Source of the DNA: Deltaproteobacteria bacterium
GTDB taxonomy: Bacteria; Desulfobacterota; Desulfobulbia; Desulfobulbales; SURF-16
Reading direction: 5' to 3'
DNA: 43,111 bases
NCBI GenBank assembly: GCA_029933005.1
Contig: JAOZOY010000018.1
Location: forward strand, 1-43,111
The notes under the pieces are model-generated. The model ran no database searches, was not told where the DNA came from, and saw only the letters and a program-made list of their open reading frames with translations. A program made the translations under genes and the position numbers. This document shows positions 7,771 through 25,504 of this stretch, piece by piece; the first letter of the stretch is position 1; every line of letters begins with the position of its first letter.

Positions 7771-7878
7771 GGGGGGATCAGAAGTCAGGAGTCAGAAGAC
7801 AGAAGTTAGAATGCGCTCATTTTAACTTCGATATTCATTTTTCCCGGTTCGACATTCCTCTGTTTTGGTTGTTATGGG

Positions 7879-8268
7879 TTATTCGCCGGGTAGGCCCAGC
7901 ATGCGTCGGGCCAGAAAAAATCCGGCAAAAACCAGTAAAATACCAATCAGGTTGCTGGCAATAACATAAATTATCGCCGGTTTCCACTGACCGATTTTAA
8001 ACATTTGCATTGCTTCCCTGGCAAAGGTGGAAAAGGTGGTGAATCCGCCGAGAAAACCGGTGAAGATAAAGAGCCGCCATTCCAGTGTAATGCGGCTGGA
8101 CTCAAGGAGACTCCAGAGAAAGCCGATCAAGAAAGACCCAAGGAGATTGACGGCCAGGGTGCCATAGGGAAAGACCGGGCCGGAAAACCGTTGGACAAGA
8201 AGAAAGAGTCCATGTCGGAAGGCCGCGCCAAGACCACCGCCGGCCATTATTGCCATTATTTTTATCAT
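7879..8268 (-). CDS. crcB: Fluoride channel CrcB/Fluc
   Basis: 129 residues with four membrane segments and the family hallmarks GGGLGAAFRHG, the asparagine-bearing YGTLAVNLLGSFLIGFL, and GFLGGFTTFSTFAREA, which holds the central Na+-binding and phenylalanine-box region. It works as a dual-topology dimer that lets fluoride leave the cell. No ribosome site stands out before ATG 8268, but the N-terminus fits family members. I looked for a crcB-motif fluoride riboswitch upstream and saw none; the upstream DNA is instead occupied by a miniature element (8311-8464). Confidence 0.93.
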   Translation of the reverse strand: MIKIMAIMAGGGLGAAFRHGLFLLVQRFSGPVFPYGTLAVNLLGSFLIGFLWSLLESSRITLEWRLFIFTGFLGGFTTFSTFAREAMQMFKIGQWKPAIIYVIASNLIGILLVFAGFFLARRMLGLPGE

Positions 8269-8310
8269 AATTAAATCACTTTAAACCGTAAAAGCTTATA
8301 TCTGTCAACC

Positions 8311-8464
8311 GTAACCGTTCACCGGGAACTAGTAATTTTACGAAAATCTCTATCCTGTAAGCGTTCATCAGTGCCTCAGATTTGTTCGTTTGAGTCTTGG
8401 CGCTATAGCCCCTCTAAGCGACAATGCTTAAACGGGTGAAGATGAGGTGTTGGTAAACGCTTAC
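8311..8464 (-). mobile_element. Miniature element, subfamily B, complete copy (IS66-like MITE, 154 bp)
   Basis: It starts GTAACCGTTCACCGG and ends GGTAAACGCTTAC (imperfect 13-bp inverted ends beginning GTAA). Flanks are TGTCAACC (8303-8310) and TGTCAAAC (8465-8472): an 8-bp duplication with one mismatch, so an older insertion. The central stem pairs a CCTCA ... CGTTT arm with its partner around a CTATAG apex. Its sequence differs from subfamily A, but landmarks (CACC before the stem, GGCACT after it, TTTTCG, end motif) are in the same places. It separates crcB from the divergent ASKHA gene. Confidence 0.82.
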
Positions 8465-8479
8465 TGTCAAACGATAACC

Positions 8480-10021
8480 ATGCAGACACTTGTTCAATTT
8501 ATTTCCGTTGAAGCGGTTCTCCCAAGTTTGGGGGATAATACCGGCGACCTTGACCGGCTTAAAAAAGCATTACAGGCGAATTTTGCCGGAAGGGAACTTG
8601 TTGTTCCTTATGCGAGAATGGCCAAGGTCGCCGGCAGATTCCGGCAGGCGGGTTTTTCGGGATGCGCTGTTATTTGTGATATGCCGGGCCGGTTTGAAAT
8701 TGTTGATTTTTTGGCGCAGACACCGGCAGTGCTGCCGGCCATGGCCCTTGATCTGGGCACAACCCATCTTGAGGCAAGCCTCATCAATCTTTTTGACGGC
8801 TCTATCCTCGTCAGGGAAAATCGTGAAAACGCCCAGATCAATTTCGGCGCTGATATTTTGAGCCGCATCCATTTTGCTGCCGGCCACGAAGGCCTTGATA
8901 AGCTGCACAGGGAAATCATCAACTGTATTAATAAACTCGCAGCTCAACTTGCCTCTAAAGCCGGATTGGCAACGGAGGAGATCAGGGCGCTCAGTGTTGC
9001 CGGCAACACCACCATGATTCATTTTTTTCTGCGCCTTGATCCCTATTATCTCTGCCGTGAACCGTATATTCCTCTTGTCAATGATCCGGATCCCTGCCGG
9101 GCCGGTGATCTGGGCCTGAATTTGCACGAGGAGGGAGTGGTCTGGGTTCTACCCAGTGTGGGGAGTTATTTTGGCGGAGATCTGATTTCCGGTATTTTGG
9201 CCAGCGGTCTTGATCAAAGTGAGGACACCTGTATGCTCATTGATGTGGGAACCAATGCCGAGGTTGTTCTTGGCAACAGGGAATGGCTTATCGCCTGTGC
9301 CGGAGCTGCCGGGCCGGCTCTTGAGGGCGGGGTTGCCCGGATGGGCATGCGGGCTGGTCCCGGCGCCATCGAGCATGTTCGAATTGATCCGGACAGCGGT
9401 AAAATTGATTTTCAAACCATTGGCAACAGTCCTCCAAGAGGAATCTGCGGTTCCGGCATTATTGACTTGGTGGCGGCCTTTTATCTGGCCCGGATTATCG
9501 ATATTCGTGGTAAATTCAGGCGGGTCGGCTATCAGGATCGTTTCATCGAAACCAACGAGGGGTTGGCCTTTATCGTGGCCCATGGGGATGAGTCGGCAAA
9601 TGGCGAACCCGTGGTCATTGGTCAGGTAGATCTTGACGCCATGATACGTTCCAAGGCTGCCATGTATTCCATTCTGACCACCATTATCAGTCAGGTCGGA
9701 TTGGAGTTTGCCGATTTGAAGCGAATTTATGTGGCCGGAGCCTTTGGCCGCCATATTGATCCCAGACAAGCTATCACCCTTGGCATGCTGCCCGATTTGC
9801 CTCTGGAGACCTTTGAACCTATTGGCAACAGCTCCCTTGCCGGAGCCGAACTGGTGCTGCTGGAACGGGACAACAGGGAACGCTGCCGGCAAATGATTCG
9901 CAGGATCACCTATCTTGAGCTGAACGTGAACCAGGAATTCATGCTCCGTTTTTCCGGCTCCCGTTTCATCCCCCATACAGATCACACTCTGTTTTCCTCT
10001 GTGCCTGTTTTTAATGATTAA
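8480..10021 (+). CDS. RACo-like ASKHA protein (DUF4445), ferredoxin domain absent
   Basis: About 513 residues. The family activates corrinoid/iron-sulfur proteins by ATP-dependent reduction of cob(II)alamin; full-length members start with a plant-type [2Fe-2S] domain. Here that domain is missing: the protein opens directly with the linker (VQFISVEAVLPSLGDNTGDLDRLKKAL). It keeps the ASKHA core: D91-L-G-T-T95, CAGAAGPALEGG, IDVGTNAEVVLG, GICGSGIIDL and AGAFGRHID. A GTG at 8447 would add 11 residues but lies inside the miniature element, so ATG 8480 is preferred despite a poor ribosome site. The electron donor must come from another protein. No corrinoid methyltransferase gene is nearby. Confidence 0.82.
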   Translation: MQTLVQFISVEAVLPSLGDNTGDLDRLKKALQANFAGRELVVPYARMAKVAGRFRQAGFSGCAVICDMPGRFEIVDFLAQTPAVLPAMALDLGTTHLEASLINLFDGSILVRENRENAQINFGADILSRIHFAAGHEGLDKLHREIINCINKLAAQLASKAGLATEEIRALSVAGNTTMIHFFLRLDPYYLCREPYIPLVNDPDPCRAGDLGLNLHEEGVVWVLPSVGSYFGGDLISGILASGLDQSEDTCMLIDVGTNAEVVLGNREWLIACAGAAGPALEGGVARMGMRAGPGAIEHVRIDPDSGKIDFQTIGNSPPRGICGSGIIDLVAAFYLARIIDIRGKFRRVGYQDRFIETNEGLAFIVAHGDESANGEPVVIGQVDLDAMIRSKAAMYSILTTIISQVGLEFADLKRIYVAGAFGRHIDPRQAITLGMLPDLPLETFEPIGNSSLAGAELVLLERDNRERCRQMIRRITYLELNVNQEFMLRFSGSRFIPHTDHTLFSSVPVFND

Positions 10022-10705: not shown

Positions 10706-11899
10706 TCAGACGTTGGTATATTTGACAAGCAAAGCCCCACTAATCATCAGTAGTCCAGAAGCCGCAATTCCTTCCCCGAACCAGCCGAAATCAGCGGCAA
10801 AACCGACAGCGGCCGGCAGAGCCCCGCCGCCGATGAAAAAGGCCAGCGGGACGGTAAGGGAAATCACCACGTTTCTTGATTCCGGAGGACCAATGGAGGC
10901 CAGGGTGGCAAAGGCGGCCGGGAAAAAACAGACCGCCAGCAGTGGCTGTAGAACGACCCAGAGAGAGATCCATTGCTGGGAAAATCCCAGCAGAATAGTC
11001 ACCATTCCGGAAAAAAAGAGCATTCCCTTCATGGTGACTCTGGAGCCGAAACGATCCGATAGGTAGCCGCCCATCAAGGCGGTGACAAGAGTCGGGATTC
11101 TGGAGAACCCTACCAGGGAATTGGCCGCCTGTTCCGTCCTTCCGTGTTCACTGACCAGAAAAAGGGGGAGAAGGTTATAAATGCCCAGGGTACTCATGAT
11201 GCCGACGCTGAAGATGAGGATCATCATCCAGAAAGCAGGCAATCGGAAAAGAGGTTTGCAGTGAGAAAGGGTTGGCGGTGTTCCGTAGGATCGCTCTTTT
11301 CGGCTGCACAGGGTGTAAGTCAGAGAAACAAGCAGTGACAGGATGCCAAGGACGAAAAAAATTGTTTGCCAGGACGAGGAGGCAAGCAGGCTGGAAACAA
11401 TGAAGGGGGCAGTCAGAAAGGCCAGGTTCGGCGCCAGTTCATGCACGGACAGAGCCCTGCCCCAATGTCTGTTCGCAAAGGAGGTGGTGATGGTGGCGAT
11501 GGCTGAAGGGAGATAGATTCCGGCGGCAAGACCCAGGAAAAAATGACCTGTCCGGAGCTGGCCAAGATTTACGGCCATACTCATCAAAAGCAGAGTGATG
11601 GCGATGCCAAGAGAAGAGAGGGTGATGGTCCGCTGGTGACAGATGACGGACGAGATGAAGCCTGATCCGGGCAGGGAAATAAAGTAGCCCGCACTGAGAC
11701 AGAGGAAAAGCGAGCCGGCCTGGCCATGACTGATATTCAGGGTCTGCTCCAAATGTGGCAGCAGGGGGGAGATAATAATTCTGGATAGAAAATTAAGGAA
11801 AAAGAGAGAGGTCAGGAGGAGAAGCGTCAGCTGCATTCCTGGAAATTGTGATTTTTTCAGAGATTGGGAATCGCTATGTGACGGATTATGTTGTTTCAA
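10706..11899 (-). CDS. MFS transporter
   Basis: 397 residues with about 12 hydrophobic segments and a soluble centre (CSRKERSYGTPPTLSHCK). The loop between helices 8 and 9 has the MFS signature GGYLSDRFGSRVT. A short, polar Ser/Gln-rich N-terminus precedes helix 1. It is a single-component secondary transporter of the inner membrane, of drug/metabolite-exporter type. The substrate is not predictable: no neighbour points to one and the gene stands alone between tpx and feoB. Confidence 0.85.
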   Translation of the reverse strand: MKQHNPSHSDSQSLKKSQFPGMQLTLLLLTSLFFLNFLSRIIISPLLPHLEQTLNISHGQAGSLFLCLSAGYFISLPGSGFISSVICHQRTITLSSLGIAITLLLMSMAVNLGQLRTGHFFLGLAAGIYLPSAIATITTSFANRHWGRALSVHELAPNLAFLTAPFIVSSLLASSSWQTIFFVLGILSLLVSLTYTLCSRKERSYGTPPTLSHCKPLFRLPAFWMMILIFSVGIMSTLGIYNLLPLFLVSEHGRTEQAANSLVGFSRIPTLVTALMGGYLSDRFGSRVTMKGMLFFSGMVTILLGFSQQWISLWVVLQPLLAVCFFPAAFATLASIGPPESRNVVISLTVPLAFFIGGGALPAAVGFAADFGWFGEGIAASGLLMISGALLVKYTNV

Positions 11900-12220: not shown

Positions 12221-12329
12221 CTTTAGTGGGTTAGTTCTGTTTTTTTGTCGTTATCGTTGAGAGTCAAGCCTTCTGGGATCTGTAATCTCTGATTTATGGA
12301 TTTCAGTTTTTTTGTGTCCGGAGCCGGGC

Positions 12330-14348
12330 ATGGTGATTGATATGGAATGTTTACAGCGCAGCTGTGGTAAAAAATGTATTGAATGCGATAAAGAGGATGT
12401 TGTCTGCCCGCATCATAAGCTGGCCATTGTCGGCAATCTCAATGTGGGGAAGTCCTCCCTTTTTGCGCAGTTATGCGGCAGTGAAACCACTTCTTTTAAT
12501 GTGCCGGGTTCAACGGTTTCCATTTCCAGGGGAAAACTGAAAGGGTCGGATACGGATTTTTACGACACTCCCGGCATTTACTCACTTTTTTCGCCAAACG
12601 AGGACGCGCGGGTATCCAGGGATCTTCTTCTCTGCCGTGACTGCGGTCATGCCATTGACGGCATTTTGATGGTTGCCGATGCGAAAAATCTGAAACGTTC
12701 CATTGCCATTACCCTGCAATATGCCGAGTATGGTCTGCCCATGCTCCTTGATGTCAATATGATCGATGAGATCCAGTCCAGGGGCATTGAAATTGATTAC
12801 GATAAACTTTCTGAAATACTCGGCCTTGAGGTCTGCACAACTGTGGCCAATGAAGGCATTGGGGTGCGTAAAGTTTTTTCCCGGCTTGGCAGGATGCGGA
12901 AACCCGGTGTTCTGGTCGAGTATCCGCCCCGCATTGAGCGCTATCTCAAGATTGTCGATCAGCTTCTGCCCGACGGCCAGGTTTCATCACGGGCCATCGG
13001 CCTTCTGCTGCTTGTAGATGATGCCAATGCCGAAAAATATGTTGAGATGAATTTCGGTGTTGCCATGGCGCGTCAACTGAAATCCCTGGTTCGGGATTAC
13101 CAGCGGCGGGAAACAGGGGATTACCACATTGTTCTGGGGCAGACTTATAACAGGATCGCCGAAGAGATTGTTGCAAAAATTCAGCGGGTTGAGCCTCCTT
13201 CCCAGCTTTCTTTGCTGCTTCGGTTCGGAGATCTCTGCACCAGGTTTTCCACCGGTATTCCCATTGCCGTGGTTGTTTTGACCCTGATGTATCTTTTTGT
13301 CGGCTCCTTTGGCGCCACTTTCCTGGTGGACTCAATCAACGGAATTCTTTTCGAAGGCTATCTGATTCCCTGGGTGGAAAAGTTGGTGGCGCCGATTCCC
13401 AGCGTTTTTATCCGTGACATGATCGTTGATCCGGATTTCGGCATCTTTCCCACCGGCATTGCCTTGGCCCTGGGGCTGGTGCTGCCGGTGTTGTTCTGTT
13501 TTTATATTGCTTTTGGTTTTCTGGAGGATTCCGGTTACCTGGCCCGGATTTCTGTTCTTCTTGACAAGGTTTTTCAGCTTATGGGACTGAACGGCAAGGG
13601 TGTCATTCCGCTTGTTATGGGCTTTTCCTGCGTGACCATGGCCATCTTTACAACCCGGATGCTTGACACGAAAAAGGAGAAAATTATTGCTACTTTTCTT
13701 CTTCTTCTCGGCATGCCCTGTGCTCCGCTGCTGGCTGTCATGTTCATTATTTTAAACAAGATGGCCATTTCAGCGACCATCACGGTTTTTGGCCTTATTT
13801 TTCTGCAGATCATTGTTGCCGGCTATCTGGCCAACAAGATTCTGCCGGGCGAACGTACGCCTCTGCTCATGGAAATTCCCGCCATGCGCATGCCGAAAAT
13901 CGGTAAGGTTGTGAAGATGTCGGCCATGAAAACTTATTTTTTCATAAAGGAGGCGGTGCCGGTTTTTATCGCTGCGTCTCTGTGCGTTTTTCTTTTTGAG
14001 CGTGTTGGTGGTCTGGACGCCCTGGAAAGAGCGTCCGAACCGATTGTCCAGGGCTTGATGGGATTGCCGGAAAAAAGTGTCCAGGTTTTTATTAAAACCA
14101 TCATCAGGCGGGAAAGCGGCGCCACCGAGATTGAACATTTAAGCGCAATTTACGACAATGTTCAGCTGGTGGTGAATCTGTTGGTCATGACCTTTTTATC
14201 ACCCTGCCTCAATGCCATTATAGTTCTTTACAAGGAACGGGGTTCCAGGGTGGCCACCGGGATTCTGGCGGCTGTCATGGTTTATGCCATTGCTGTGGGT
14301 ACGGTGGTGAATCATGCCTGCCGTATTTTAGGAATTACGTTTACTTGA
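12330..14348 (+). CDS. feoB: Ferrous iron transporter FeoB with N-terminal Cys cluster
   Basis: 672 residues. Residues 1-30 are unusual: C7, C12, C16, C19, C26 and H28-H29 precede the G domain, a possible metal or Fe-S site. The G domain follows: G1 GNLNVGKS (35-42), a switch threonine in FNVPGSTVS, G3 DTPG, G4-like NMID. The C-terminal half has about ten membrane segments with two Gate-type motifs, GFSCVTMAIFTTRML and GMPCAPLLAVMF, each with the expected cysteine. It imports Fe2+ across the inner membrane. The start is ATG 12330 with GGAG upstream; an in-frame TTG at 12312 has none. No separate feoA is seen; the regulator at 14580 follows on the same strand. Confidence 0.9.
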   Translation: MVIDMECLQRSCGKKCIECDKEDVVCPHHKLAIVGNLNVGKSSLFAQLCGSETTSFNVPGSTVSISRGKLKGSDTDFYDTPGIYSLFSPNEDARVSRDLLLCRDCGHAIDGILMVADAKNLKRSIAITLQYAEYGLPMLLDVNMIDEIQSRGIEIDYDKLSEILGLEVCTTVANEGIGVRKVFSRLGRMRKPGVLVEYPPRIERYLKIVDQLLPDGQVSSRAIGLLLLVDDANAEKYVEMNFGVAMARQLKSLVRDYQRRETGDYHIVLGQTYNRIAEEIVAKIQRVEPPSQLSLLLRFGDLCTRFSTGIPIAVVVLTLMYLFVGSFGATFLVDSINGILFEGYLIPWVEKLVAPIPSVFIRDMIVDPDFGIFPTGIALALGLVLPVLFCFYIAFGFLEDSGYLARISVLLDKVFQLMGLNGKGVIPLVMGFSCVTMAIFTTRMLDTKKEKIIATFLLLLGMPCAPLLAVMFIILNKMAISATITVFGLIFLQIIVAGYLANKILPGERTPLLMEIPAMRMPKIGKVVKMSAMKTYFFIKEAVPVFIAASLCVFLFERVGGLDALERASEPIVQGLMGLPEKSVQVFIKTIIRRESGATEIEHLSAIYDNVQLVVNLLVMTFLSPCLNAIIVLYKERGSRVATGILAAVMVYAIAVGTVVNHACRILGITFT

Positions 14349-14579
14349 TTTTTTAGAAAAAAGGGGCAGATGGTAATTCGATGGTATAGCGTAGATGGCT
14401 GATTTTGTTTTACTTGTTTTGTCGTCGGGGATGCTCAGAAAGAAATATTCCTGTAATAAAGATTGGCAAGTTTAGTGGCCAAAGTGGTTTTACCTCTGCC
14501 CCTGTCCGACAACATATTAAAAATAAAGCTATTTGCAAATCTAAGAAAAAAACTCCTGGGCTGAAGAGGATAAAACCCA
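14349..14579. other. Gap between feoB and dtxR-type gene
   Basis: 231 bp without a supportable gene. A 61-codon frame (14405-14590) lacks a ribosome site and overlaps the next gene, so I do not call it. No clear terminator follows feoB, so read-through into the regulator is possible. Confidence 0.5.
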
Positions 14580-15242
14580 ATGTTGACTGAAAAGCAGGAA
14601 GAGATACTGGAGGCGATCTGGGCGGCCGGTGAGAATGAACGGCATACTCTGGACGCTATCAAAAGAAGATGCGTTGTGGAGATTTATGATGATGACCTGG
14701 CCGGGCTGGAAGCCGAGAATCTGATTGTTCGCGATGATGACAGGATTTTGTTGACCGCAACCGGCAGCCCGGTTGCCGAGGGAGTGATCCGGCGTCATCG
14801 ACTGGCCGAGGTCATGGTGTCCACTCTTTTACGTTTGAAAGACGAAAATATGAAGGAGATGGCCTGTAAGATCGAACACGCCCTTCTGCCCGAGGTCGAG
14901 GAATCCATCTGTACCCTGCTTGGTCATCCCGAGATCTGTCCGGACGGCAAACCCATTCCCAGAGGAAAATGCTGTTCCAGGGAGCAGCGGATAGTCGATA
15001 ATGTAGTCGTCAGCCTGAGTGAACTGCAGCCAAGCGAGAGCGGCAGGATTACTTATATCAAGCCGGGAAGTCATTCCGAACTGCACCAGCTCATTGCTTT
15101 GGGGCTGAATCCGGGCGTTCATGTCACGGTGCATCGCACTTCGCCGGCCTTTATCATCAAATTTGAAAATACCGAACTGGCCATGGACGAAGAAGTGGCC
15201 CGGAATATTTACGTCTGGAAAACGAACGGTTCTTCCGATTGA
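14580..15242 (+). CDS. DtxR/MntR-family metal-dependent regulator with FeoA-like C-terminus
   Basis: 220 residues. Residues about 1-65 are a winged helix-turn-helix. Residues 70-125 are the metal-binding dimerisation domain, with the family motif RRHRLAEVMVSTLL, then ACKIEHALLPEVEESICTLLGHPEICPDGKPIP; the H, E and C residues there are typical metal ligands. A CC pair (residues 137-138) follows. The last about 75 residues fit the SH3-like FeoA domain. In this family, Fe2+ or Mn2+ binding makes the protein bind DNA and repress uptake genes. Its place after feoB suggests it controls feoB, and its FeoA-like end may supply the missing FeoA fold. The start has GAGG upstream. Confidence 0.88.
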   Translation: MLTEKQEEILEAIWAAGENERHTLDAIKRRCVVEIYDDDLAGLEAENLIVRDDDRILLTATGSPVAEGVIRRHRLAEVMVSTLLRLKDENMKEMACKIEHALLPEVEESICTLLGHPEICPDGKPIPRGKCCSREQRIVDNVVVSLSELQPSESGRITYIKPGSHSELHQLIALGLNPGVHVTVHRTSPAFIIKFENTELAMDEEVARNIYVWKTNGSSD

Positions 15243-15269: not shown

Positions 15270-15671
15270 TTATAAGGGAGATGGTAGGTTGAGAAACAGA
15301 TTCAGGGCTTCAAAAATTTGAGGGATGGAAAATGGCTTTTTGATGTAATGATCAAAGCCTGCTGTTTTCATTGAGCCTTTTTTGGGGACAACAGAGGTGA
15401 CAGCGATAACAGGCGTGTAGGGGCGGTTTGTTTCTTTTTCTTTCTTGCGGATATGTTTTACGGCCTCAAAACCATCCATCACCGGCATATTGATATCCAT
15501 TAAGATTGCCTGATATCGAATGGATTTCCATTTTTTTAAGGCAGAATATCCGTTTTCGGCAAAGTCGGACTTGATTTGATAACGCTCCAGTATCATGCCG
15601 AGAAGATGGCGAATCATTAGTTCATCATCGACAACCAGGACACGGATATTATTTGTTGCTGTTTTTCCCAT
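15270..15671 (-). CDS. Single-domain response regulator (CheY-like receiver)
   Basis: 133 residues, receiver domain only. Acidic pair in VVDDE (15-16), phospho-acceptor D59 in ILMDINMPVMDG, conserved T/S in AVTSV, and lysine in YIKKPFS. There is no output domain, so it signals by protein-protein contact or as a phosphorelay intermediate. The start at 15671 has AGGAGAGAG directly upstream; a longer frame to 15704 is unsupported. It lies next to other two-component genes (16279-17721, 21331-24404) and could be a shuttle between the kinases and the sigma-54 regulator. Confidence 0.88.
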   Translation of the reverse strand: MGKTATNNIRVLVVDDELMIRHLLGMILERYQIKSDFAENGYSALKKWKSIRYQAILMDINMPVMDGFEAVKHIRKKEKETNRPYTPVIAVTSVVPKKGSMKTAGFDHYIKKPFSIPQIFEALNLFLNLPSPL

Positions 15672-15796
15672 CTCTCTCCTGAAAGTTTGCCTTCCCACCA
15701 TCAAATTTCTATTTAGCTTGGAAGAAACATGCCGACTGCGTGGCTTTCTGGAAAAATATTTTATGATTTTTCAGGGACAAAGGGAAACAGCTCAAT

Positions 15797-16278: not shown

Positions 16279-17721
16279 TCAACTTTCCGCTTTTTCAGTG
16301 GACCCGGGAAGGGAGATATCGTGCCTGGTGATAAATTGGCTGAGGGACTGGCGGCTGAGACCAATGAGCCTTGCCGCCAAGCTGATATTGCCGTCGGTTC
16401 GGTTGAGGGCCTCGGCTGCCAGACGGAGCCGGACCTCTTTCACTGACGGCAGCCGGGGGCCAAAGGTGACCTTTGCTTTGGTTACGGATTCATCCGGAAT
16501 CCCGCTGTTCCCGCTGTCGTTCATTATCTCCATGAACACCTTGACGCCCAGTACCCGGCCGGGCTGTCTGCTCACGGCGTCAAACACCATAGCTTTCAAT
16601 TCCCTGATATTGCCGGGAAAGGCATAATTCTCCAAGAGGGGATAGATCTCCTGGCGAAGGGATAATTTTTTTTTACCAAACTCCTTTGACGCCTGATTGG
16701 CAAAATATTCAACCAGCAGGGGCATGTCTGTCAGTCGGTCCCGCAGTGGCGGCAGATGGACGAGGTGGGCGTAAAGCCTGAAGTAAAGATCTTTTCTGAA
16801 AGTTCCCCTGGCCACCATCTCCGCCAGATTATGGTTGCTGGCCGCAATAATGCGGGCATCGGTCATTTGCGGCGTGTCACTGCCCAGGGGGAGATACTCC
16901 TTTTCCTGAAGAAGACGCAGGAGCTTGACCTGGGATTTCAGGCTTAAATCACCGATTTCGTCAAGGAAAAGGGTCCCGGCTGCGGCTTTTTTTATCTGCC
17001 CGGCCCGTGAACTGTTGGCGCCGGTAAAGGCGCCTTTTGTATGACCGAAAAGGGTATCGCTGAAGACCTCATCGTCAAGTCCGGCCACATTCACCGCCAC
17101 AAAGACTCCTTTTCTGTTGCTGGCCCCATGAACGGCCCGGGCCGCCAGCTCCTTGCCCACTCCTGTTTCACCGCTGACCAGGACCGGCTGGCTGCTGGGA
17201 CCGATTGTTTCGATATAATTGAAAATCTTCATCATCTGCCAGTCAGCGGTGATCATTTCGGCAAAGAGTTCCGGGCGTTTGGGTGGCCGGCCAATCTCCT
17301 GCTGCCGCAGGGCCTCGTTTTCCCTACGCAGTTCTCTCATTTCCAGGGCGCAACGGGTCGCGGTGAGCAGCCGGCCGGTACTGAAGGGTTTGGTGATATA
17401 ATCAAAAGCCCCTTTTTTTATGCAGTCCACAACCGTGTCAATTTCATCCGTGGCCGTGGCCATGATCACCGGCAGGCTGGGAAAAGAACTGACGATTTTT
17501 TCCAGGAGTTGATCTCCACGCAGATGGGGCATGGTGAGATCCAGCAATATCAGGGCAACCTCTTGCCGGTTCAGCAGGGGCAGAACTTCACGGCTGTCAG
17601 CGAGGGTGAGCAGATTGTTAAAGCCGTTCAGGCCCAGGGTCCGGGCTACGGCCCGGCCCACATCTTCGTCATCATCCACCAGTAAAATCGGCAGGTCTGG
17701 ATTTTGGGCAGTTTTTTTCAT
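16279..17721 (-). CDS. Sigma-54-dependent response regulator (NtrC family)
   Basis: 480 residues in three domains. Receiver 1-125 with D61 in LLDLTMP and K in ITKPFS. AAA+ sigma-54 activator about 155-390: Walker A GETGVGKE, the sigma-54 contact loop GAFTGAN, Walker B TLFLDEIGDL and arginine-finger segment FRKDLYFRL. Fis-type helix-turn-helix at the C-terminus (GNISLAARLIGLSRQSLSQFI). It activates sigma-54 promoters after phosphorylation. No kinase is adjacent on the same transcript; candidate partners are the kinases at 21331-24404. It is divergent from the TonB-dependent receptor with 245 bp between, so it may control that gene, though I found no convincing -24/-12 site there. Confidence 0.93.
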   Translation of the reverse strand: MKKTAQNPDLPILLVDDDEDVGRAVARTLGLNGFNNLLTLADSREVLPLLNRQEVALILLDLTMPHLRGDQLLEKIVSSFPSLPVIMATATDEIDTVVDCIKKGAFDYITKPFSTGRLLTATRCALEMRELRRENEALRQQEIGRPPKRPELFAEMITADWQMMKIFNYIETIGPSSQPVLVSGETGVGKELAARAVHGASNRKGVFVAVNVAGLDDEVFSDTLFGHTKGAFTGANSSRAGQIKKAAAGTLFLDEIGDLSLKSQVKLLRLLQEKEYLPLGSDTPQMTDARIIAASNHNLAEMVARGTFRKDLYFRLYAHLVHLPPLRDRLTDMPLLVEYFANQASKEFGKKKLSLRQEIYPLLENYAFPGNIRELKAMVFDAVSRQPGRVLGVKVFMEIMNDSGNSGIPDESVTKAKVTFGPRLPSVKEVRLRLAAEALNRTDGNISLAARLIGLSRQSLSQFITRHDISLPGSTEKAES

Positions 17722-17809: not shown

Positions 17810-17922
17810 CTGCTTCCCTAAAACAGCATTTTTAATGCCGAAGTTCTTGCCTGGAAATACATAATATCGTATGTTACACACCTTTAATCGTCCGCAAAGC
17901 CTTGCCCAGCAACATTTCCTGC

Positions 17923-17933
17923 GGGGGGGGGGG
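17923..17933 (+). repeat. Homopolymer of 11 G ahead of the receptor gene
   Basis: Eleven consecutive G bases followed by TAATTTATTTTTTTAC, ending 16 bp before ATG 17950 and 34 bp before ATG 17968. G-runs of this length slip readily in replication and in other bacteria tune surface-protein expression. Confidence 0.75.
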
Positions 17934-17967
17934 TAATTTATTTTTTTACATGAAAAGGATTCCCTTC

Positions 17968-19794
17968 ATGAAACAGCTGCTTTCCCTTGCCATCCCCTTT
18001 TCCCTGTTCACTGTTTTAATCGCGCTAGCCATTCCGGCAGCTGGTCAGAATCACGAAAACGAACTTCTTTCCATGTACTTTGCCGAAGACGAACTGGTGG
18101 AGAGCGCTACCCGCGCCCCAAAACCCATGAGTCAGGTGGCGGAAAACGTTACCATCATCACGGCCGAGGAAATTCAACGTATGAACGCCCACAGCGTGGC
18201 CGAGGTTTTGAACCGGGTGTCCGGCGTCTTTGTCGGCTTTAACGGGAGAGATTTTAATTCATCGACAGCTCTGCATATCGAGGAATCGGATTTTACGCAC
18301 GTTTTGGTCCTGATTGATGGCCTGCGCTGGAACTTTGCCGCCGGAGGCATGGCTGTGACAGATTCCATCCCGGTGGAGATCATCAGCCGCATTGAGGTCA
18401 TCAAGGGGCCAGGCTCTTCCACTTGGGGCTCCTCCCTGGGCGGGGTGGTGAATATTATTACCAAGAAGACCGGTTCCAGCACACGCCCAACCGGCGTTAT
18501 AACAGGTTCCTATGGCGAGGCCAACTCCCAGCAGTACAGCGGTACTGTTGCCGGCAAGGTTGGCAAGGCCGGCTATTTCATGGCTGTGGGCAGCCAGAAT
18601 TCGGACGGGCTCATGGGCGGCCGTTACTACGACCGGGAAAATATCTACGCCAAGGTGAGCCTGGATCTGCCCCACGCCACCACCCTGACTTTAACCACTG
18701 GCTACAGCGAGCCGGAGCTGCGTTTTTTTGACGCCTATGAGTATAACTGGCGAGTAGAGGGCAAAGATCGTAACTTCTGGACCACCACCTCACTGGACAG
18801 CAGTCTCTCGGAAGATATCAGTTTGAATGTCAGCGTTTTCCGTAAGGAACAGAAATACATCCGCCACAATTATACATTGCCGGACAAGACCTTCTGGTTT
18901 GAATCCTATGAAGACAACTGGACCAATGGGATTTTCAGCAGTGTGAACGGACATTTCGGTTCCCATTTGCTAGTACTGGGTGGAGAGTTTGAGCGTTCTG
19001 AAAGTAAGGATGAAACCGGGGAACGGCAATATGATGAAGCTTGGGGTATTTTCATCAATGACACCATAAAAATGGGTAATTTCAGTCTCATTCCGGGCCT
19101 TCGTTATGACCACCTTTCACTTACTGATGACATGACCAGTCCCAGCCTTGGTCTTACCTGGCAGATGACGGAAAACAGTCTGTTGCGGGCCCTGGTCTCC
19201 AGCGGATTCAGACGGCCATATATCACTGATGCTACTCCGGGTCTTGATCCCGAGGAGGTTATTTCTTACCAGATAGGATTTGAGACCTCGGTCCTGTCCT
19301 TCTGCATGTTAAAGACCACCCTCTTTGAGCACAAGCTCAAGGATACCTGGGTCTGGGACTGGACAGCATCGCAAAATTCCAATGGTCCTGATGCCAAACG
19401 CTACGGCTATGAGGTGGAGATTGCCACCACTTCTTTCCATGATTTTTCGGCTCAGAGCAGTTTTTCCTATGTCTATACCGATTATTACGGGGAAATGGAG
19501 AATGACGACCAATACAGCGCCAAGTTTACCCTCCTTTATGACAATCCTGAACTCTTCAGCGCTGAACTTTTTGGCAATTATACCTGGTGGAACACCAATA
19601 ATATCAGTTCCAGCGGAGATAACGGCAGCATGATCTGCGATCTGAACCTGAGCAGGCAATTCTGGCTCACTGAGCAGACAGCCCTGGATCTTTTTGCCAC
19701 TTGCCACAACCTTTTTGACGGTAGACATTACTGGCATTCATTGTATGAGAATCCGCACCGCTGGGTCGAAGCGGGGCTGCGTTTTTATTTTTAA
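17968..19794 (+). CDS. TonB-dependent outer-membrane receptor
   Basis: About 608 residues. A signal peptide (MKQLLSLAIPFSLFTVLIALAIPAAGQ) is followed by a plug domain (NVTIITAEEIQRMNAHSVAEVLNRVSGVFV ... VLVLIDGLRWN ... IEVIKGPGSSTWGSSLGGVVNIITKK) and a 22-strand-type barrel ending in the aromatic terminus GLRFYF needed for BAM insertion. The plug resembles BtuB/colicin-I-receptor types. It would take up a scarce ligand (metal chelate, cobalamin or siderophore) using TonB energy. ATG 17968 has AAGGA eight bases upstream; ATG 17950 is the alternative. An 11-G tract lies just upstream. The Cys-Cys peptide gene follows 71 bp after its stop, which hints the receptor may handle that peptide or its metal complex. 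Confidence 0.9.
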   Translation: MKQLLSLAIPFSLFTVLIALAIPAAGQNHENELLSMYFAEDELVESATRAPKPMSQVAENVTIITAEEIQRMNAHSVAEVLNRVSGVFVGFNGRDFNSSTALHIEESDFTHVLVLIDGLRWNFAAGGMAVTDSIPVEIISRIEVIKGPGSSTWGSSLGGVVNIITKKTGSSTRPTGVITGSYGEANSQQYSGTVAGKVGKAGYFMAVGSQNSDGLMGGRYYDRENIYAKVSLDLPHATTLTLTTGYSEPELRFFDAYEYNWRVEGKDRNFWTTTSLDSSLSEDISLNVSVFRKEQKYIRHNYTLPDKTFWFESYEDNWTNGIFSSVNGHFGSHLLVLGGEFERSESKDETGERQYDEAWGIFINDTIKMGNFSLIPGLRYDHLSLTDDMTSPSLGLTWQMTENSLLRALVSSGFRRPYITDATPGLDPEEVISYQIGFETSVLSFCMLKTTLFEHKLKDTWVWDWTASQNSNGPDAKRYGYEVEIATTSFHDFSAQSSFSYVYTDYYGEMENDDQYSAKFTLLYDNPELFSAELFGNYTWWNTNNISSSGDNGSMICDLNLSRQFWLTEQTALDLFATCHNLFDGRHYWHSLYENPHRWVEAGLRFYF

Positions 19795-19796
19795 TG

Positions 19797-19825
19797 TTGA
19801 TTCTGATTTTCTTTTTTCGTATACT
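19797..19825 (+). promoter_or_regulatory. Sigma-70 promoter of the peptide gene
   Basis: TTGATT (19797-19802), 17-base spacer, TATACT (19820-19825), starting two bases after the receptor stop codon. Optimal spacing and a five-of-six -10. A small TTGAAT/ATTCAA hairpin (19830-19847) then lies in the leader, directly ahead of the GGAGGAG ribosome site at 19851-19857. It would make the peptide gene a separate transcription unit. Confidence 0.55.
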
Positions 19826-19865
19826 TTTTTTGAATCTTTTTATTCAATCTGGAGGAGTGGTCTTA

Positions 19866-19982
19866 ATGAAAGCGAAAAAAATTATTGTCCTGGTTCGACC
19901 GAAAATTTTGAAGAAGGTGGCAAACACAATGAACTGCTGCAGGGCAACGTCGCCTGCCCCGGTCGGCCCGGAAGAAGAGTAG
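19866..19982 (+). CDS. Putative modified-peptide (RiPP) precursor, geopeptide-like
   Basis: 38 residues: a basic, partly amphipathic leader (MKAKKIIVLVRPKILKKVAN), then the core-like TMNCCRATSPAPVGPEEE with a Cys24-Cys25 pair, a Pro/Ala stretch and an acidic tail. Very strong ribosome site (GGAGGAG, eight bases before ATG). It is followed one base later by a possible start of a radical SAM/SPASM enzyme, the usual layout of a precursor and its maturase. It resembles, from memory, precursors called geopeptides in Geobacter; I have not verified that. Its own promoter and terminator imply far more peptide than enzyme. Alternative: a small membrane-associated regulatory peptide. The modification type and final function are unknown. 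Confidence 0.75.
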   Translation: MKAKKIIVLVRPKILKKVANTMNCCRATSPAPVGPEEE

Positions 19983-19983
19983 G

Positions 19984-21318
19984 ATGGGGGAGCTGCGGCT
20001 CCCTTTTTTCCGCCTTTTAGTTATGATCCTGTCCCATTACGTCAAGATTTTTTCCTGGCCTGCCGATTCTGAAAATCGCCTTCTTTACTCCACCCGCACC
20101 GGGGCTGTGGCCCTTGCCCCGGCACAAATCATTGCCGATCTTGAGAATGGCAATGCCCTTGATGCCGAATCTGAATCTACCTTAAGCGAGATTGGTCTAC
20201 TGGTAGACGATCGTGACCAGGAAAAGCGAGAGACCAGTGCCATGGTGCGGCAGATTAATAGTCTGCGCACGGCAATGAACGTCTCGGTCATTGTCAACCT
20301 GCACTGCAATTTCCGCTGCCGCTACTGCTATGAGGGAAATCAGAAAGGCAGCAGTTTTATGAGCGAAGAGACGGCTGACCAGCTTATCGCCTTTGTTAAA
20401 AAAGGGTTCCAGCCGGATATGACCAGGCTGACCCTGGATTTTTACAGTGGTGAGTCCCTTCTTTCCGTAGACCTGATTCGCCACATCGCCGGTTCCCTTA
20501 AACTGTTTGTTGAGAGCCAGGGGGCCGTTTTTGAGATGACCCTGGTAACGAATGGTTCTCTGTTAACTCCAAAAGTTGTTGGGCGCTTGCTGCCCCTGGG
20601 CCTGAAACGGGCCAAGATCACCATAGACGGTCCGCCTGAAATCCATAATTATTTCCGGCCCTATCGCTCCGGGCGCGCCTCGTTTGACACCATCATTCAT
20701 AATGTCAAACAATGCGCCAACCTGATCAAAATCGGACTGAACGGTAATTTCACCAGGAAAAATTACCGGCAGTTTCCCTCTCTTTTTGATCATCTCGAAG
20801 CGCATCATCTCACCCCGGAGAAGATATATCGCCTCTCTTTCTCTCCTGTCCTCCAGGTTAACGATGAGTTTTCCGCCGGATTCTGCGGCGGCTGCGCTTC
20901 CTGCAATGAAACGTGGCTCGCAGAGGCCGTCCCCTTTCTTCGTCAAGAAATCTTGAACAGGGGTTATCGCACCGATAAAATTTCACCATCGTTGTGCATG
21001 GTGGATGTTGACAACAGTTTTGTCGTCCATTATGACGGCAGTCTTTATCAATGCGTGGCCCTGATTGGCCATGAAGCGTATGCCAGCGGTGATGTTTGGT
21101 CAGGGATGAAGGATTACAGCCGTCAGTATCATCTGGACCATTGGCGGCACAATAAAGAGTGTCTGGAGTGCTCGTATCTGCCCCACTGCTTTGGCGGCTG
21201 CCGTTACATGGCCCTGCAGAGGGAGGGCCACATGGGTGAGGTGGATTGCCAAAAGGATTTTTTTGACGCTGCTCTAGAGACGTTTATCAGGCAGGAGGTG
21301 AGCTTGCAAGGGGTTTAA
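19984..21318 (+). CDS. Radical SAM/SPASM peptide maturase (geopeptide-type)
   Basis: 444 residues from ATG 19984. Radical SAM core: C108-NFR-C112-RY-C115 binds the SAM [4Fe-4S] cluster; YSGES and TNGS are downstream SAM-site motifs. C-terminal SPASM domain with C357, C393-x2-C396-x5-C402-x3-C406 and C422, for auxiliary clusters. An additional C301-GG-C304-AS-C307 group is present. Such enzymes crosslink or modify Cys or other side chains of a neighbouring small peptide. The start is ambiguous: ATG 19984 has GGAAGAAGAG upstream, but the first codons form an intrinsic terminator; ATG 20023 (MILSHYVKIF) lies after it and fits my recollection of homologues, yet lacks a ribosome site. No separate RRE/PqqD gene; residues 30-85 may serve as the recognition domain. 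Confidence 0.88.
   Translation: MGELRLPFFRLLVMILSHYVKIFSWPADSENRLLYSTRTGAVALAPAQIIADLENGNALDAESESTLSEIGLLVDDRDQEKRETSAMVRQINSLRTAMNVSVIVNLHCNFRCRYCYEGNQKGSSFMSEETADQLIAFVKKGFQPDMTRLTLDFYSGESLLSVDLIRHIAGSLKLFVESQGAVFEMTLVTNGSLLTPKVVGRLLPLGLKRAKITIDGPPEIHNYFRPYRSGRASFDTIIHNVKQCANLIKIGLNGNFTRKNYRQFPSLFDHLEAHHLTPEKIYRLSFSPVLQVNDEFSAGFCGGCASCNETWLAEAVPFLRQEILNRGYRTDKISPSLCMVDVDNSFVVHYDGSLYQCVALIGHEAYASGDVWSGMKDYSRQYHLDHWRHNKECLECSYLPHCFGGCRYMALQREGHMGEVDCQKDFFDAALETFIRQEVSLQGV
19988..20009 (+). terminator. Intrinsic terminator between peptide and maturase genes
   Basis: GGGAGC TGCG GCTCCC followed by TTTTTT: a perfect six-base GC-rich stem, four-base loop and six-T run, six bases after the peptide stop codon. 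It would end most peptide transcripts and let only a fraction continue into the radical SAM gene. Confidence 0.82.
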
Positions 21319-21330
21319 CGGTGCCCCCCT

Positions 21331-22578
21331 TTAGCATCCATTCAGGGGGATAAGCAGCCGGAACAGGCTGCCCCGGCCCAGCGTGCTTTCAATTTCAAGT
21401 TTCATTCTCAATTCCCTGGCAATGCCATGGGCAATGGACAGGCCGAGACCGGTCCCTTCTCCCACCTCCTTTGTCGTGTAAAAAGGCTCAAGGCAACGCT
21501 TTCTGATTTGTTTTATCATGCCGATGCCATTGTCTTCGACCTCGAAGATCAACCTTTGATGATCGTTTGTCAGGCCGGATTTCGGCTTCTGAAAAAGGCG
21601 GACTGTGACGAGCTTGGGATAATCATCGGATTCTTCTTTTGCCTGCTCCATGACCGCATAACCGGCATTGCTGAGAAAGTTAACCACAACTTGTTCCAAT
21701 TTTTGGGGATCGGTTTTGATTTTCGGCACATTTTTTATTTCTTCTTTGAGCGCAATGTTTTTGGCTCGGAACTGTTGCCGGAAAAAAGAGAGTGCATTGT
21801 CCACCGGTACAAATGGATCAATACATTGCATGCCGCCGAAGTCGCTGCGTGAGAAGGCGCGGACATGGTTGATAATTTTTCCGGCCCGTTTGACCTGGGC
21901 CAGAATATCTTGCACGGATTCCGCCTCCAGGGATTTCTGCTTCCGGCGTGAAAAGTAGAACTGCAGGTTTTCGGCGTCAAGCTGGATGACGGTAAGGGGC
22001 TGATGGATTTCATGGGCCATGCCCGAGGCCATCTCGCCCAGGGCGGCAAGTCTTCCGGCATGGGCAAGTTCCACCTGTTTGGCAAAAAGGGCCTTTTCCG
22101 TCTCTATGCGTTTTTTCATGTCCGCCAGCAGACGTTCGTTTGTTTCCTTTAACTCCTGGTTTTTCTGTTGCAGTTCCGCGAGTAGTCTCCTGTTTGCCTC
22201 GGCAAGCAGAAAAAGTTCTTCTGCCTTTTTCAGGGTCAGCAGCAGGTTTTCCTCTTTCCATGGCTTGAGGATGTATTCGTAGATGCGGCCTTGGTTAATG
22301 GCATTAATAATATCGTGGGTATCGCTGTAGGCGGTGAGGATGATGCGGATTGGTTCAGGGTCTAAATGGTGGAGAATAGTGAGGAACCGGATCCCGGTCA
22401 TGCCTGTCATTTTCTGGTCGGCGATAATGATGGCAATGTCGGTATTCTCGCGGAACAGTTCCAGCGCAACCGGGCCGGAAAGAGCAGTCAAAATCTCAAA
22501 ATGATCTTGAAATGCCATTTTGAAATTAATGAGATTTGTTTCTTCATCATCAACATAGAGAATTTTTGATCGAGACAT
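21331..22578 (-). CDS. Receiver-histidine kinase protein
   Basis: 415 residues, cytoplasmic. Receiver 1-120 with D54 in IIADQKMTGMTG and K in ILKPWKEENL; the DQKM pattern is common in receivers of RpfG/HD-GYP-like type. A coiled coil about 120-180 (AELQQKNQELKETNERLL). HisKA with the phospho-histidine in GMAHEIHQPL, then HATPase: N box NFLSNAGYAV, G1 DNGIGM, G2 GEGTGLGLS. No sensor or membrane domain, so it probably takes input through its receiver, perhaps from the membrane kinase encoded upstream (22704-24404). It converges on the maturase gene with 12 bp between stops. Confidence 0.9.
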   Translation of the reverse strand: MSRSKILYVDDEETNLINFKMAFQDHFEILTALSGPVALELFRENTDIAIIIADQKMTGMTGIRFLTILHHLDPEPIRIILTAYSDTHDIINAINQGRIYEYILKPWKEENLLLTLKKAEELFLLAEANRRLLAELQQKNQELKETNERLLADMKKRIETEKALFAKQVELAHAGRLAALGEMASGMAHEIHQPLTVIQLDAENLQFYFSRRKQKSLEAESVQDILAQVKRAGKIINHVRAFSRSDFGGMQCIDPFVPVDNALSFFRQQFRAKNIALKEEIKNVPKIKTDPQKLEQVVVNFLSNAGYAVMEQAKEESDDYPKLVTVRLFQKPKSGLTNDHQRLIFEVEDNGIGMIKQIRKRCLEPFYTTKEVGEGTGLGLSIAHGIARELRMKLEIESTLGRGSLFRLLIPLNGC

Positions 22579-22703: not shown

Positions 22704-24404
22704 TCATTCGTTTACCGGTAAAATGATCTCAAATTCCGTGCCATTACCCTCTTCACTCCTGACCAGAATCTCACCGTGATGCTCTTTGATTATGGTGTAT
22801 GAAATGGACAAGCCCAGGCCGGTGCCGACGCCTGGCTCTTTGGTCGTGAAAAAAGGATCAAAGATCCTGTCCAGGTTTTCCGGCGCAATGCCGCTGCCGC
22901 TGTCTTTGATAGTGATATGAACCTTGCCATAATCCTGCCTGGTCCGGATCATTACAGTTCCTTTGCCGGGAATGGCCTGCATGGAGTTGGTGAGCAGATT
23001 CATGAAGACCTGGTTGATTTTTCCCGGCATGCAGTTGACCGGTGCAAGGGTTTTGTCGTAATTCCTGATGATTTCGATGCGGTTTCGGTATTCCGGATAA
23101 ATAAAGGTCAATGTGCTTTCCAGGCCGGCATGGATATCCATTCTTTTTTTTCTTTCTTCATCAAGACGGGAAAAATGTCTCAACTCTCGGACAATGCTGC
23201 CGGTTCGCCTGGCACCCTTGCTGATGTTGTCCAGGAGAATATCCACATCGGCCAGCATTTTTTTGTAATTGTGGCCGTCCTTCCCTGCGTTGCCCTTGAT
23301 GCTTTTTCCGTGTTTGGCCGCAAGATCCTCATAGTCGGAAAGAATCATTTTCAGGCCGGCCATGAGCCGTTTGAGAGAGGGGAGGGCTCCGGTGATAAAG
23401 TTTGTGGTGTTGTTGATTTCGTGGGCCACGCCCGCCACCAGCTGGCCCAGGGAAGCCATTTTTTCAGATTGGACAAGCTGGGACTGGGTTTCTTTAAGCT
23501 CTGTCAGGGTTTTTGTCAGTTTCTGGTTTGTTTCCACAAGTTCCATGTGGCGTTGGGAGAGTTGCGTGGTCCTCTGAGCTACCTTTTTCTCAAGATTGAG
23601 TTTCAGTTCCGTGATTGTCCGGAAAGAGTCATTGAGTTCTTCAATCAGGGAGGTAAAGGTCTTGTTGAGCAAATCAAAATCCGTGCTTTGTTCGTTTATA
23701 CCGGCCTTTTTTTTCACGCGTAGCAGCAGTTTTTCCATGGGGCTGGTTGCCTGCTTGACAACAATAAAGGTGGTTAAGGCGGCCAGCGCCAGAAAGATGG
23801 CCGCTAAAATAAAATTTCGGATGAGAATCGTTTTGATCCCCCTTGTCAGCCTGTCTTTAGCGATAACAATTTGTACGGAACCGATGACCTCTTCCGGCCA
23901 GGTTATATCTTCAGGCTCGAAAAATAGTTCTTCCATGGACTGAGAGGTATTTATAGTGGTTACCGGCGCCTGAAAACAGAAGCTGTTTTGATGGATTTTC
24001 ACCCGTGCAGTATTGAGATTCCACTGAAGTGGGATTGGACATATGTCCGGGATCGACGATGGATTTGTCAAGTCTTTTTCCTGTTGCTCCAAGATAAAGA
24101 TTATTTGACCTTCTTTATTGAAAATGGCGACCCGTAGAATATCTTTCCTGGTCAAAATAGCCTCGGCTGGCAGACTCAACTGTTCTTTGTTCTCGGTAAA
24201 GACACCGAGCCTGACAGTATAGGCCAGCAATTCAGCCTGACTTATACCCTCGCTGATGGTCTGCTCGGTCAGCAGTTGTTTTTGCAGGTCGATAAAGAGC
24301 ATATTAAAAAGCAATGCCAGGGTCAGCATGGCCAGAAAAAGAGAGATAAAGATTCGGCCGCTGAAGCTTGCCGGCCATTGTCTGATGATCCGGAGTATTT
24401 TCAT
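22704..24404 (-). CDS. Membrane sensor histidine kinase
   Basis: 566 residues. A membrane segment at about 18-38, a periplasmic sensor of about 150 residues, a second segment near 192-215, HAMP-like linker, a long coiled coil (LKLNLEKKVAQRTTQLSQRHMELVE), HisKA with GVAHEINNTTNFI, and HATPase with NLLTNSMQAI, DSGSGIAPENL and GVGTGLGLSIS. It is translationally coupled (four-base ATGA overlap) to the upstream binding-protein gene, so the binding protein probably presents its ligand to this kinase rather than to an ABC transporter. Its phosphoryl acceptor may be the receiver-kinase at 21331-22578 or the sigma-54 regulator at 16279-17721. Confidence 0.92.
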   Translation of the reverse strand: MKILRIIRQWPASFSGRIFISLFLAMLTLALLFNMLFIDLQKQLLTEQTISEGISQAELLAYTVRLGVFTENKEQLSLPAEAILTRKDILRVAIFNKEGQIIFILEQQEKDLTNPSSIPDICPIPLQWNLNTARVKIHQNSFCFQAPVTTINTSQSMEELFFEPEDITWPEEVIGSVQIVIAKDRLTRGIKTILIRNFILAAIFLALAALTTFIVVKQATSPMEKLLLRVKKKAGINEQSTDFDLLNKTFTSLIEELNDSFRTITELKLNLEKKVAQRTTQLSQRHMELVETNQKLTKTLTELKETQSQLVQSEKMASLGQLVAGVAHEINNTTNFITGALPSLKRLMAGLKMILSDYEDLAAKHGKSIKGNAGKDGHNYKKMLADVDILLDNISKGARRTGSIVRELRHFSRLDEERKKRMDIHAGLESTLTFIYPEYRNRIEIIRNYDKTLAPVNCMPGKINQVFMNLLTNSMQAIPGKGTVMIRTRQDYGKVHITIKDSGSGIAPENLDRIFDPFFTTKEPGVGTGLGLSISYTIIKEHHGEILVRSEEGNGTEFEIILPVNE

Positions 24405-25330
24405 GGCATCACCTCCGGATTGATCTTGATTTTGAGCTGGGCGGCGATTTTCTCATTGATCATGACTTTGACTTTTTCGCATATTACAGGTTGAATTTTT
24501 TCTACCCTGATACCTGAGAGGATTTTTTTGGCCAGAATACCGGCTGCATCTCCCATGGCCCGAATGTCAAAGGACACGGCCAGCAGCGCGCCGGATTTAA
24601 GATATTTATCCGCGAAGGTCAGGACCGGGATGCGTCTTTCCATGGCAAAGAGAAAGAGGGCCTCCACTCCCTGTGGAGTGGCAACTGTCAGATCGGGCAC
24701 CATCCAGAGCAGATCGATTTCAGAGCCAAGATCATTCAGCCCCGCCAGGATATTTTTTGACGACTTGATCCGGCGACTGATGAGTGTGAGGTCCAGTTGC
24801 GCCGCGGCAGTCTCCGCCTCTCTGATAAAGTCAGCGCTGTATCGGGGATCATAGAGGATGCCGATTTGTTTGACATGGGGCAGTCTTTTCCGCACTTCCT
24901 CAAGCTGGGCTGCGGCGGGCAGCTTCATTTCCACCCCGGTGATATTTCTCTGCCTGGACAGGGCTTGCGGCACCGATGGAGTCAGCAGATAAATAATGGG
25001 GATATCCTGGAAATTTTTGACTGCCGCCAGGGCCTTTCCGCCCAGGGCAAGAATCAGGTCGGGCTTGCGGCGCAGTATTTCCCTGACAAGGGAGTTGCCG
25101 TCGCGCATGTCAGGCAGATATATTTTGCTGAGCTGAACAGGTTGGATGGTTTTTACACATCTGCCGGGCATCGTAGCGACAGCGGTGTGAAAGGAATGCA
25201 GAGCAGTTTGGTAGGGCCTGATCCTGGCGCTTTGCACCACGACAATATCTGCGGAACGGGCCGTGGACGTAATGCCCGGCAGAATCAGGAAAAGGATGAA
25301 AATGATGATCTGGTAACAATGGATTTTCAT
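24401..25330 (-). CDS. TrpX-like ABC-type substrate-binding protein
   Basis: 309 residues with a signal sequence (MKIHCYQIIIFILFLILPGITSTARSA). The mature protein shows the COG2984/TrpX pattern: DIVVVQSARIRPYQTALHSF, ILRRKPDLILALGGKALAAVK, DIPIIYLLTPS and KQIGILYDPRYSADF, typical of type-1 periplasmic binding folds. No permease or ATPase gene is near. It is coupled to the kinase gene by a four-base overlap, which indicates a sensory role. The start at 25330 is chosen because the signal peptide begins there; a longer frame to 25411 also lacks a ribosome site. The ligand is unknown: the broader family binds aromatic amino acids and other small molecules. Confidence 0.82.
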   Translation of the reverse strand: MKIHCYQIIIFILFLILPGITSTARSADIVVVQSARIRPYQTALHSFHTAVATMPGRCVKTIQPVQLSKIYLPDMRDGNSLVREILRRKPDLILALGGKALAAVKNFQDIPIIYLLTPSVPQALSRQRNITGVEMKLPAAAQLEEVRKRLPHVKQIGILYDPRYSADFIREAETAAAQLDLTLISRRIKSSKNILAGLNDLGSEIDLLWMVPDLTVATPQGVEALFLFAMERRIPVLTFADKYLKSGALLAVSFDIRAMGDAAGILAKKILSGIRVEKIQPVICEKVKVMINEKIAAQLKIKINPEVMP

Positions 25331-25504
25331 CAACAGGTCTGCAGCACTACTTCTGTAATGAGTGAAAAGGAATGTTGTGAGAATAAAGACTGCACGGAGC
25401 AGGTTATACATGTGGAATATTATACAAATTTTATGCCGGAGAGGAAGTGACGGGAAAACAGAATGGGAACACAGACGCAGATATGGAGGAGCGGGCCTTG
25501 AAGT

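Follow-up and report, generated by a model that had tools for sequence, protein, structure and literature searches.

Does the short Cys-Cys peptide gene that lies beside a radical SAM/SPASM enzyme in this DNA, a stretch of 43,111 nucleotides referred to here as the window, encode the precursor of a ribosomally synthesized and post-translationally modified peptide (RiPP), and if so, where would the finished peptide go? The gene runs on the forward strand from ATG 19866 to a stop codon ending at 19982 and encodes MKAKKIIVLVRPKILKKVANTMNCCRATSPAPVGPEEE (38 aa). It is preceded by the ribosome binding site GGAGGAG (19851-19857, forward strand), where the preliminary description of this locus had put it, and is separated from the downstream enzyme gene by a hairpin followed by a T-run (19986-20009, hairpin 19986-20003, forward strand), which may serve as a terminator or an attenuator. 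The earlier assignment of this element as an intrinsic terminator is borne out by comparison with other loci, where a terminator-like hairpin stands just 3' of 26 of the 52 related peptide genes described below, against 2.1 expected; if the peptide has to be made in excess of the enzyme, a hairpin after half of the peptide genes is what one would expect. The sigma-70-type promoter proposed at the same time fares less well. The site is present on the forward strand (TTGATT-17-TATACT, 19797-19825) and matches the consensus at 9 of 12 positions, but sites of this type occur 7 times in 3 kb against 2.8 in shuffled sequence, so that it is weak evidence for a start of transcription. Of the gaps in 30 loci whose receptor gene precedes on the same strand, 12 contain such a site against 6.3 expected, a weak enrichment. 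Good sigma-54 matches are scattered upstream of the peptide, receptor and binding protein genes, with no clear excess overall; L061, L063, L064, L067 and L100 have sites of the TGGYAT...TGCA type at positions -67 to -92 relative to the peptide start (L and G numbers denote the loci and genomes of this comparison).

The enzyme gene (forward strand, 20023-21318, alternative start 19984) identifies the system. Its product scores 522 bits on the NCBIfam model TIGR04280, geopeptide radical SAM maturase (cut-off 400), and covers profile positions 1-427 of 428, which confirms a resemblance to the geopeptides of Geobacter that had been put forward earlier. ATG 20023 is probably the start used, as judged from the sequence, because ATG 19984 sits at the hairpin and the TIGR04280 alignment begins at residue 14. 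The radical SAM motif CxxxCxxC (20305-20328; Cys 108, 112 and 115 of 444) is invariant in 45 homologues, and so are all seven cysteines of the SPASM domain (20995-21249; Cys 338, 357, 393, 396, 402, 406 and 422), that is, the auxiliary-cluster cysteines by which sactipeptide and ranthipeptide maturases are recognized; the complete cysteine set described earlier is thus real. The extra group CGGCASC (20884-20904) is so only in part, its middle Cys (304 of 444) being the one conserved position, in 43 of 45 homologues, while the rest is mostly lineage-specific. The N-terminal region (20023-20232) is predicted to form an RRE-like domain of three strands plus helices (AlphaFold2 model, pLDDT 91.8), and the closest solved fold to the modelled maturase is that of CteB, a thioether-forming SCIFF maturase (TM 0.71). 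The nearest named relative, from a Desulfobulbaceae metagenome-assembled genome (L003), is 88% identical. A search of a genome-contig collection for related loci gave a single relative, and a plasmid collection held only distant maturases of 25-29% identity. We also noticed that the maturases at L074:3628-5793, L076:5019-7100 and L077:9120-11300 are fused to a C-terminal domain of ~270-300 aa with a conserved IRYxDDFID...LWP motif; this domain has no match in Pfam or NCBIfam, and none of the other loci was seen to encode it on its own.

Three sets of genomes supplied loci with TIGR04280 maturases: 22 from the same family, of which 16 were positive, 395 from the phylum (31 above cut-off) and 141 from another order (101 above cut-off). 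The DNA around these maturases yielded 52 distinct peptides. The preliminary description had suggested looking for Cys-Cys peptides beside maturase homologues, and they are present in nearly all TIGR04280 loci, which together with the membership of the enzyme in that family supports the RiPP layout. Common to the 52 peptides is a leader motif [VIL]x[VIL]L-x-x-G, represented in the window peptide by IIVL (residues 6-9, 19881-19892, forward strand) and usually placed exactly 19 residues ahead of an invariant Cys. The core has the form CCx7[R/K] and often ends there. Of the adjacent cysteines (Cys24-Cys25 in the window peptide, 19935-19940), the second is found in all 52 and the first in 49, the other forms being two peptides with a single Cys (L058 and L059) and one with C-I-C (L100). 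The Cys-Cys tail noted earlier is therefore the usual form without being strictly required, and invariance is limited to the second Cys. The C-I-C gene lies at L100:10429-10545, in a stretch that holds a receptor, a binding protein and a kinase and, as far as it was read, no maturase; outside the set of 52, a C-T-C geopeptide occurs at L123:9304-9435. As many cores end in P-x-R, the sulfatase-type formylglycine motif C-x-P-x-R was considered and ruled out, the spacing between Cys and Pro being 6 rather than 2.

A short open reading frame with a terminator-like hairpin downstream might also be spurious, the intergenic stretch being merely a leader or attenuator of the maturase gene. We regard this as extremely improbable, given 52 distinct sequences that keep leader, Cys and spacing. 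The peptide pattern is moreover strongly enriched upstream of maturases, with 29 matches in 33 kb against 5 in 1.39 Mb elsewhere (three of these five being displaced geopeptides) and 0.8 in shuffled DNA. Peptide genes also occur in tandem copies in L101 and L118, and some of the peptides match the curated precursor model TIGR04229. L118, from a complete genome, has four geopeptide genes with two maturases, one receptor and one binding protein (5677-9081 and 10923-11021).

The family search proposed for both products gave a split answer: the maturase passes its model, but the window peptide is unmatched by TIGR04229 (cut-off 30 bits) even at an E-value of 10. Relatives in L118 and L122 reach a score of 40, above that cut-off, and 12 of the 52 peptides are matched at an E-value of 0.5. 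The window peptide is thus best described as a divergent geopeptide rather than a TIGR04229 match, because the relation rests on the shared motif and the partner enzyme. On these sequence grounds we are nearly certain that peptide and maturase belong to the geopeptide family.

How the two may meet is suggested by L053, in which the enzyme shares the reading frame of the peptide and only one TAA codon separates them; with this stop read through, the two were modelled as one chain. In this model the leader contains a strand (residues 6-9) and a short helix, with pLDDT 87-89 across residues 1-20, and the core and linker are disordered (residues 24-51 below 50 pLDDT), the core docking nowhere confidently. 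A β-strand requires a partner strand, and docking of the leader on the RRE-like domain of the maturase is therefore the natural reading of the model.

The surroundings of the pair were analysed by clustering all open reading frames from 43 loci. Three kinds of neighbour stand out: a TonB-dependent receptor (41 of 43), a binding protein of the PF04392 (ABC_sub_bind) family (38 of 43) and sensor kinases (34 of 43). In the window these are, by domain matches and neighbourhood, the receptor with plug and barrel on the forward strand (17902-19794) and, on the reverse strand, the binding protein (24401-25411), a sensor histidine kinase with an sCache_4-like sensor region (22704-24404) and a receiver-histidine kinase hybrid (21331-22578). 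A sigma-54-dependent response regulator of NtrC type (16279-17721, reverse strand) recurs in 9 of 43 loci and a single-domain receiver protein (15270-15704, reverse strand) in 4. The peptide gene, which had been called self-contained, is in fact part of a module with receptor, PF04392 protein and kinases. Among the 43 loci conservation does not extend to an ABC permease or ATPase. In 32 of 42 cases a kinase gene comes directly after the binding protein gene, at a distance of 100 nt or less and commonly with the 4-nt overlap seen in the window; lack of an ABC transporter together with this coupling favours sensing over bulk uptake, although receptor and binding protein could serve the uptake of a nutrient or metal instead of signalling. 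An STN signalling domain, expected of a FecIRA-type transducer, was not found on the window receptor, only plug and barrel. Nor is a dedicated exporter or protease conserved among the 43 loci, an MFS gene adjoining in only 3. This MFS protein, a candidate exporter with weak likeness to EntS, lies next to the maturase at L083:10413-11996 and also in L080 and L039. At L049:2033-8471, pairs of binding protein and receptor stand in tandem upstream of one maturase cassette.

Receptor and maturase also go together across genomes. In the family sample, the genomes without maturase G007, G011, G012 and G016 also lack receptor and binding protein; in G013 the receptor ends 179 bases short of the contig end, where the maturase is expected, and G004 has receptor, binding protein, kinase and peptide with the maturase absent. 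In the phylum sample of 395 genomes the receptor is present in 31 of 31 genomes with a maturase and in 3 of the 364 others, only the second count being informative because the receptor profile was built from neighbours of the maturase. For the same reason another order served as an independent test: of 141 genomes, 97 have both, 6 the maturase only, 11 the receptor only and 27 neither (p = 1e-14, or 5e-14 when genomes used to build the profile are left out; both values are optimistic because related genomes are counted as independent). Some genomes with a single component are explained by contig breaks (e.g., G528:C23, G541 and G545), and others contain genuine orphan receptor modules. Distances between maturases and between receptors correlate with r = 0.78, uncorrected for the species tree, and where one genome has several cassettes, each usually has its own receptor.

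Loci with a rearranged gene order keep the peptide next to the receptor. The MFS gene in L083 splits the peptide from the maturase and not from the receptor; in L080 the peptide gene is transcribed divergently from that of the maturase and lies directly against the receptor gene, on the strand of the latter; and L100 and L088 show receptor and peptide with no maturase in the stretch read. Orphan modules of TonB receptor and binding protein, some with a kinase, in which no geopeptide was detected in the stretch read, are seen in L108-L112, L115-L117, L120 and L124-L126, and their ligands are possibly geopeptides acting in trans.

From its gene content, with receptor, binding protein and kinase conserved, the module suggests that the peptide, once finished, is secreted as a signal or metal carrier and then recaptured and sensed. 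Our main reading, with a probability of about 0.6, is that of a geopeptide RiPP cassette equipped with its own recapture-and-sensing module. The leader motif IIVL would dock as a β-strand on the RRE-like domain, as the model of the L053 homologue suggests, and the radical SAM/SPASM enzyme would act on the CCx7[R/K] core, with the invariant second Cys as target or mediator of a change that is most likely an intramolecular Cys thioether. Once freed of its leader and exported, the mature peptide would come back, possibly loaded with a metal, through the adjacent TonB-dependent receptor. In the periplasm the PF04392 protein would bind it and the histidine kinase, translationally coupled to that protein, would sense it, signalling to the hybrid kinase and, in a part of the lineages to which that of the window belongs, onward to the sigma-54 response regulator. 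The steps from re-entry onward are read from the conserved gene partnership, which makes the peptide the probable ligand of the module. For the thioether chemistry itself we see the chances as even. Several observations weigh against the reading as a whole: an exporter or protease of its own is not conserved, the core finds no confident docking place in the model, and no acceptor residue for a thioether is conserved in the 52 peptides, neither Asp nor Asn nor Thr.

The window maturase shares with the ranthipeptide/SCIFF and sactipeptide maturases CteB and PapB an RRE-like N-terminus, a radical SAM core, a 7-Cys SPASM domain and a Cys-containing substrate. It is only ~20% identical to CteB, however, and geopeptides have one or two Cys rather than six, show no conserved Asp, Asn or Thr acceptor, and come with a Gram-negative outer-membrane receptor attached. 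SCIFF ranthipeptides have been listed as quorum-sensing peptides (PMC8326336). Methanobactin operons also combine a small Cys peptide with a TonB-dependent receptor, and some have a gene for a periplasmic binding protein 3' of the receptor gene (PMC3621798); the window locus shares this set of components. They differ in that the geopeptide maturase is a radical SAM enzyme, sensor kinases replace FecIR-type regulation and the receptor has no STN domain; the window proteins that were compared with Pfam include none of the MbnB (DUF692) or MbnC type.

Methanobactin being the closest functional analogue in this respect, the peptide may instead be a metallophore built by a radical SAM enzyme, secreted to bind metal and retaken loaded through receptor and binding protein, with the kinases reporting metal supply. 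Besides the shared gene set around methanobactins (PMC3621798), the BtuB-like character of the module receptor and the weak EntS likeness of the MFS protein in three loci fit this view, as does the presence of FeoB and a DtxR-type regulator with a FeoA domain (window 12312-15242) a few kilobases upstream. FeoB and DtxR are not conserved with the module in the 43 loci, however, and neither is an inner-membrane permease or ATPase. Peptides with a single Cys (L058 and L059) or a spaced C-x-C would be odd for a fixed metal site, and a Cys consumed in a thioether, if one forms, would no longer offer a thiolate ligand. We hold the metallophore to be unlikely, though it is the more serious of the two functional alternatives. 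The other, in which the geopeptide works within the producing cell or is an antimicrobial while its neighbours sense something else, would account for a short core without signal peptide and for the missing conserved export gene. Receptor-binding protein-kinase paralogues without geopeptides do exist, so that the ligand of such a module can be a different one or can reach it in trans. Against this alternative stand the tight linkage of receptor and maturase in two samples and the position of the peptide beside the receptor even where the maturase has moved or is absent, and we consider it improbable.

If the recapture-and-sensing reading is correct, it would mean a peptide signalling or metal-sensing route across a large group of anaerobic Gram-negative bacteria, in which, to our knowledge, little RiPP signalling has been described. 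We tentatively go further and propose, at somewhat less than even odds, that geopeptides form a widespread class of RiPP pheromones, or else of metal reporters, in Gram-negative bacteria, and that a relay across the envelope not described before reads them: TonB receptor, free-standing PF04392 protein without ABC transporter, sensor kinase and, in part of the group, a sigma-54 activator. Sequence models have already named the family of the enzyme and, in part, that of the peptide: the window maturase lies above the TIGR04280 cut-off, the precursors have the layout of leader and Cys-Cys in common, and some relatives pass TIGR04229. The window peptide and most of the 52 miss TIGR04229, however, and neither model includes the partnership with receptor, binding protein and kinase. 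A search for geopeptide, TIGR04280 and TIGR04229 in the searchable literature, which leaves aside subscription papers and preprints, returned nothing relevant, the matches appearing to be 'gageopeptide' lipopeptides. The receptor-binding protein-kinase set and the refined peptide signature appear to be undescribed within that literature, and we make no claim of priority. No function proposed for geopeptides was found, and the conserved partners offer a direct hypothesis for the destination of the peptide.

Two further genes in the window were noted in passing, a RACo-type corrinoid protein activator with RACo_C_ter and middle domains (8447-10021) and a second radical SAM protein, unrelated to the maturase, with Radical_SAM_N2 and DUF2344 domains (36275-38845).
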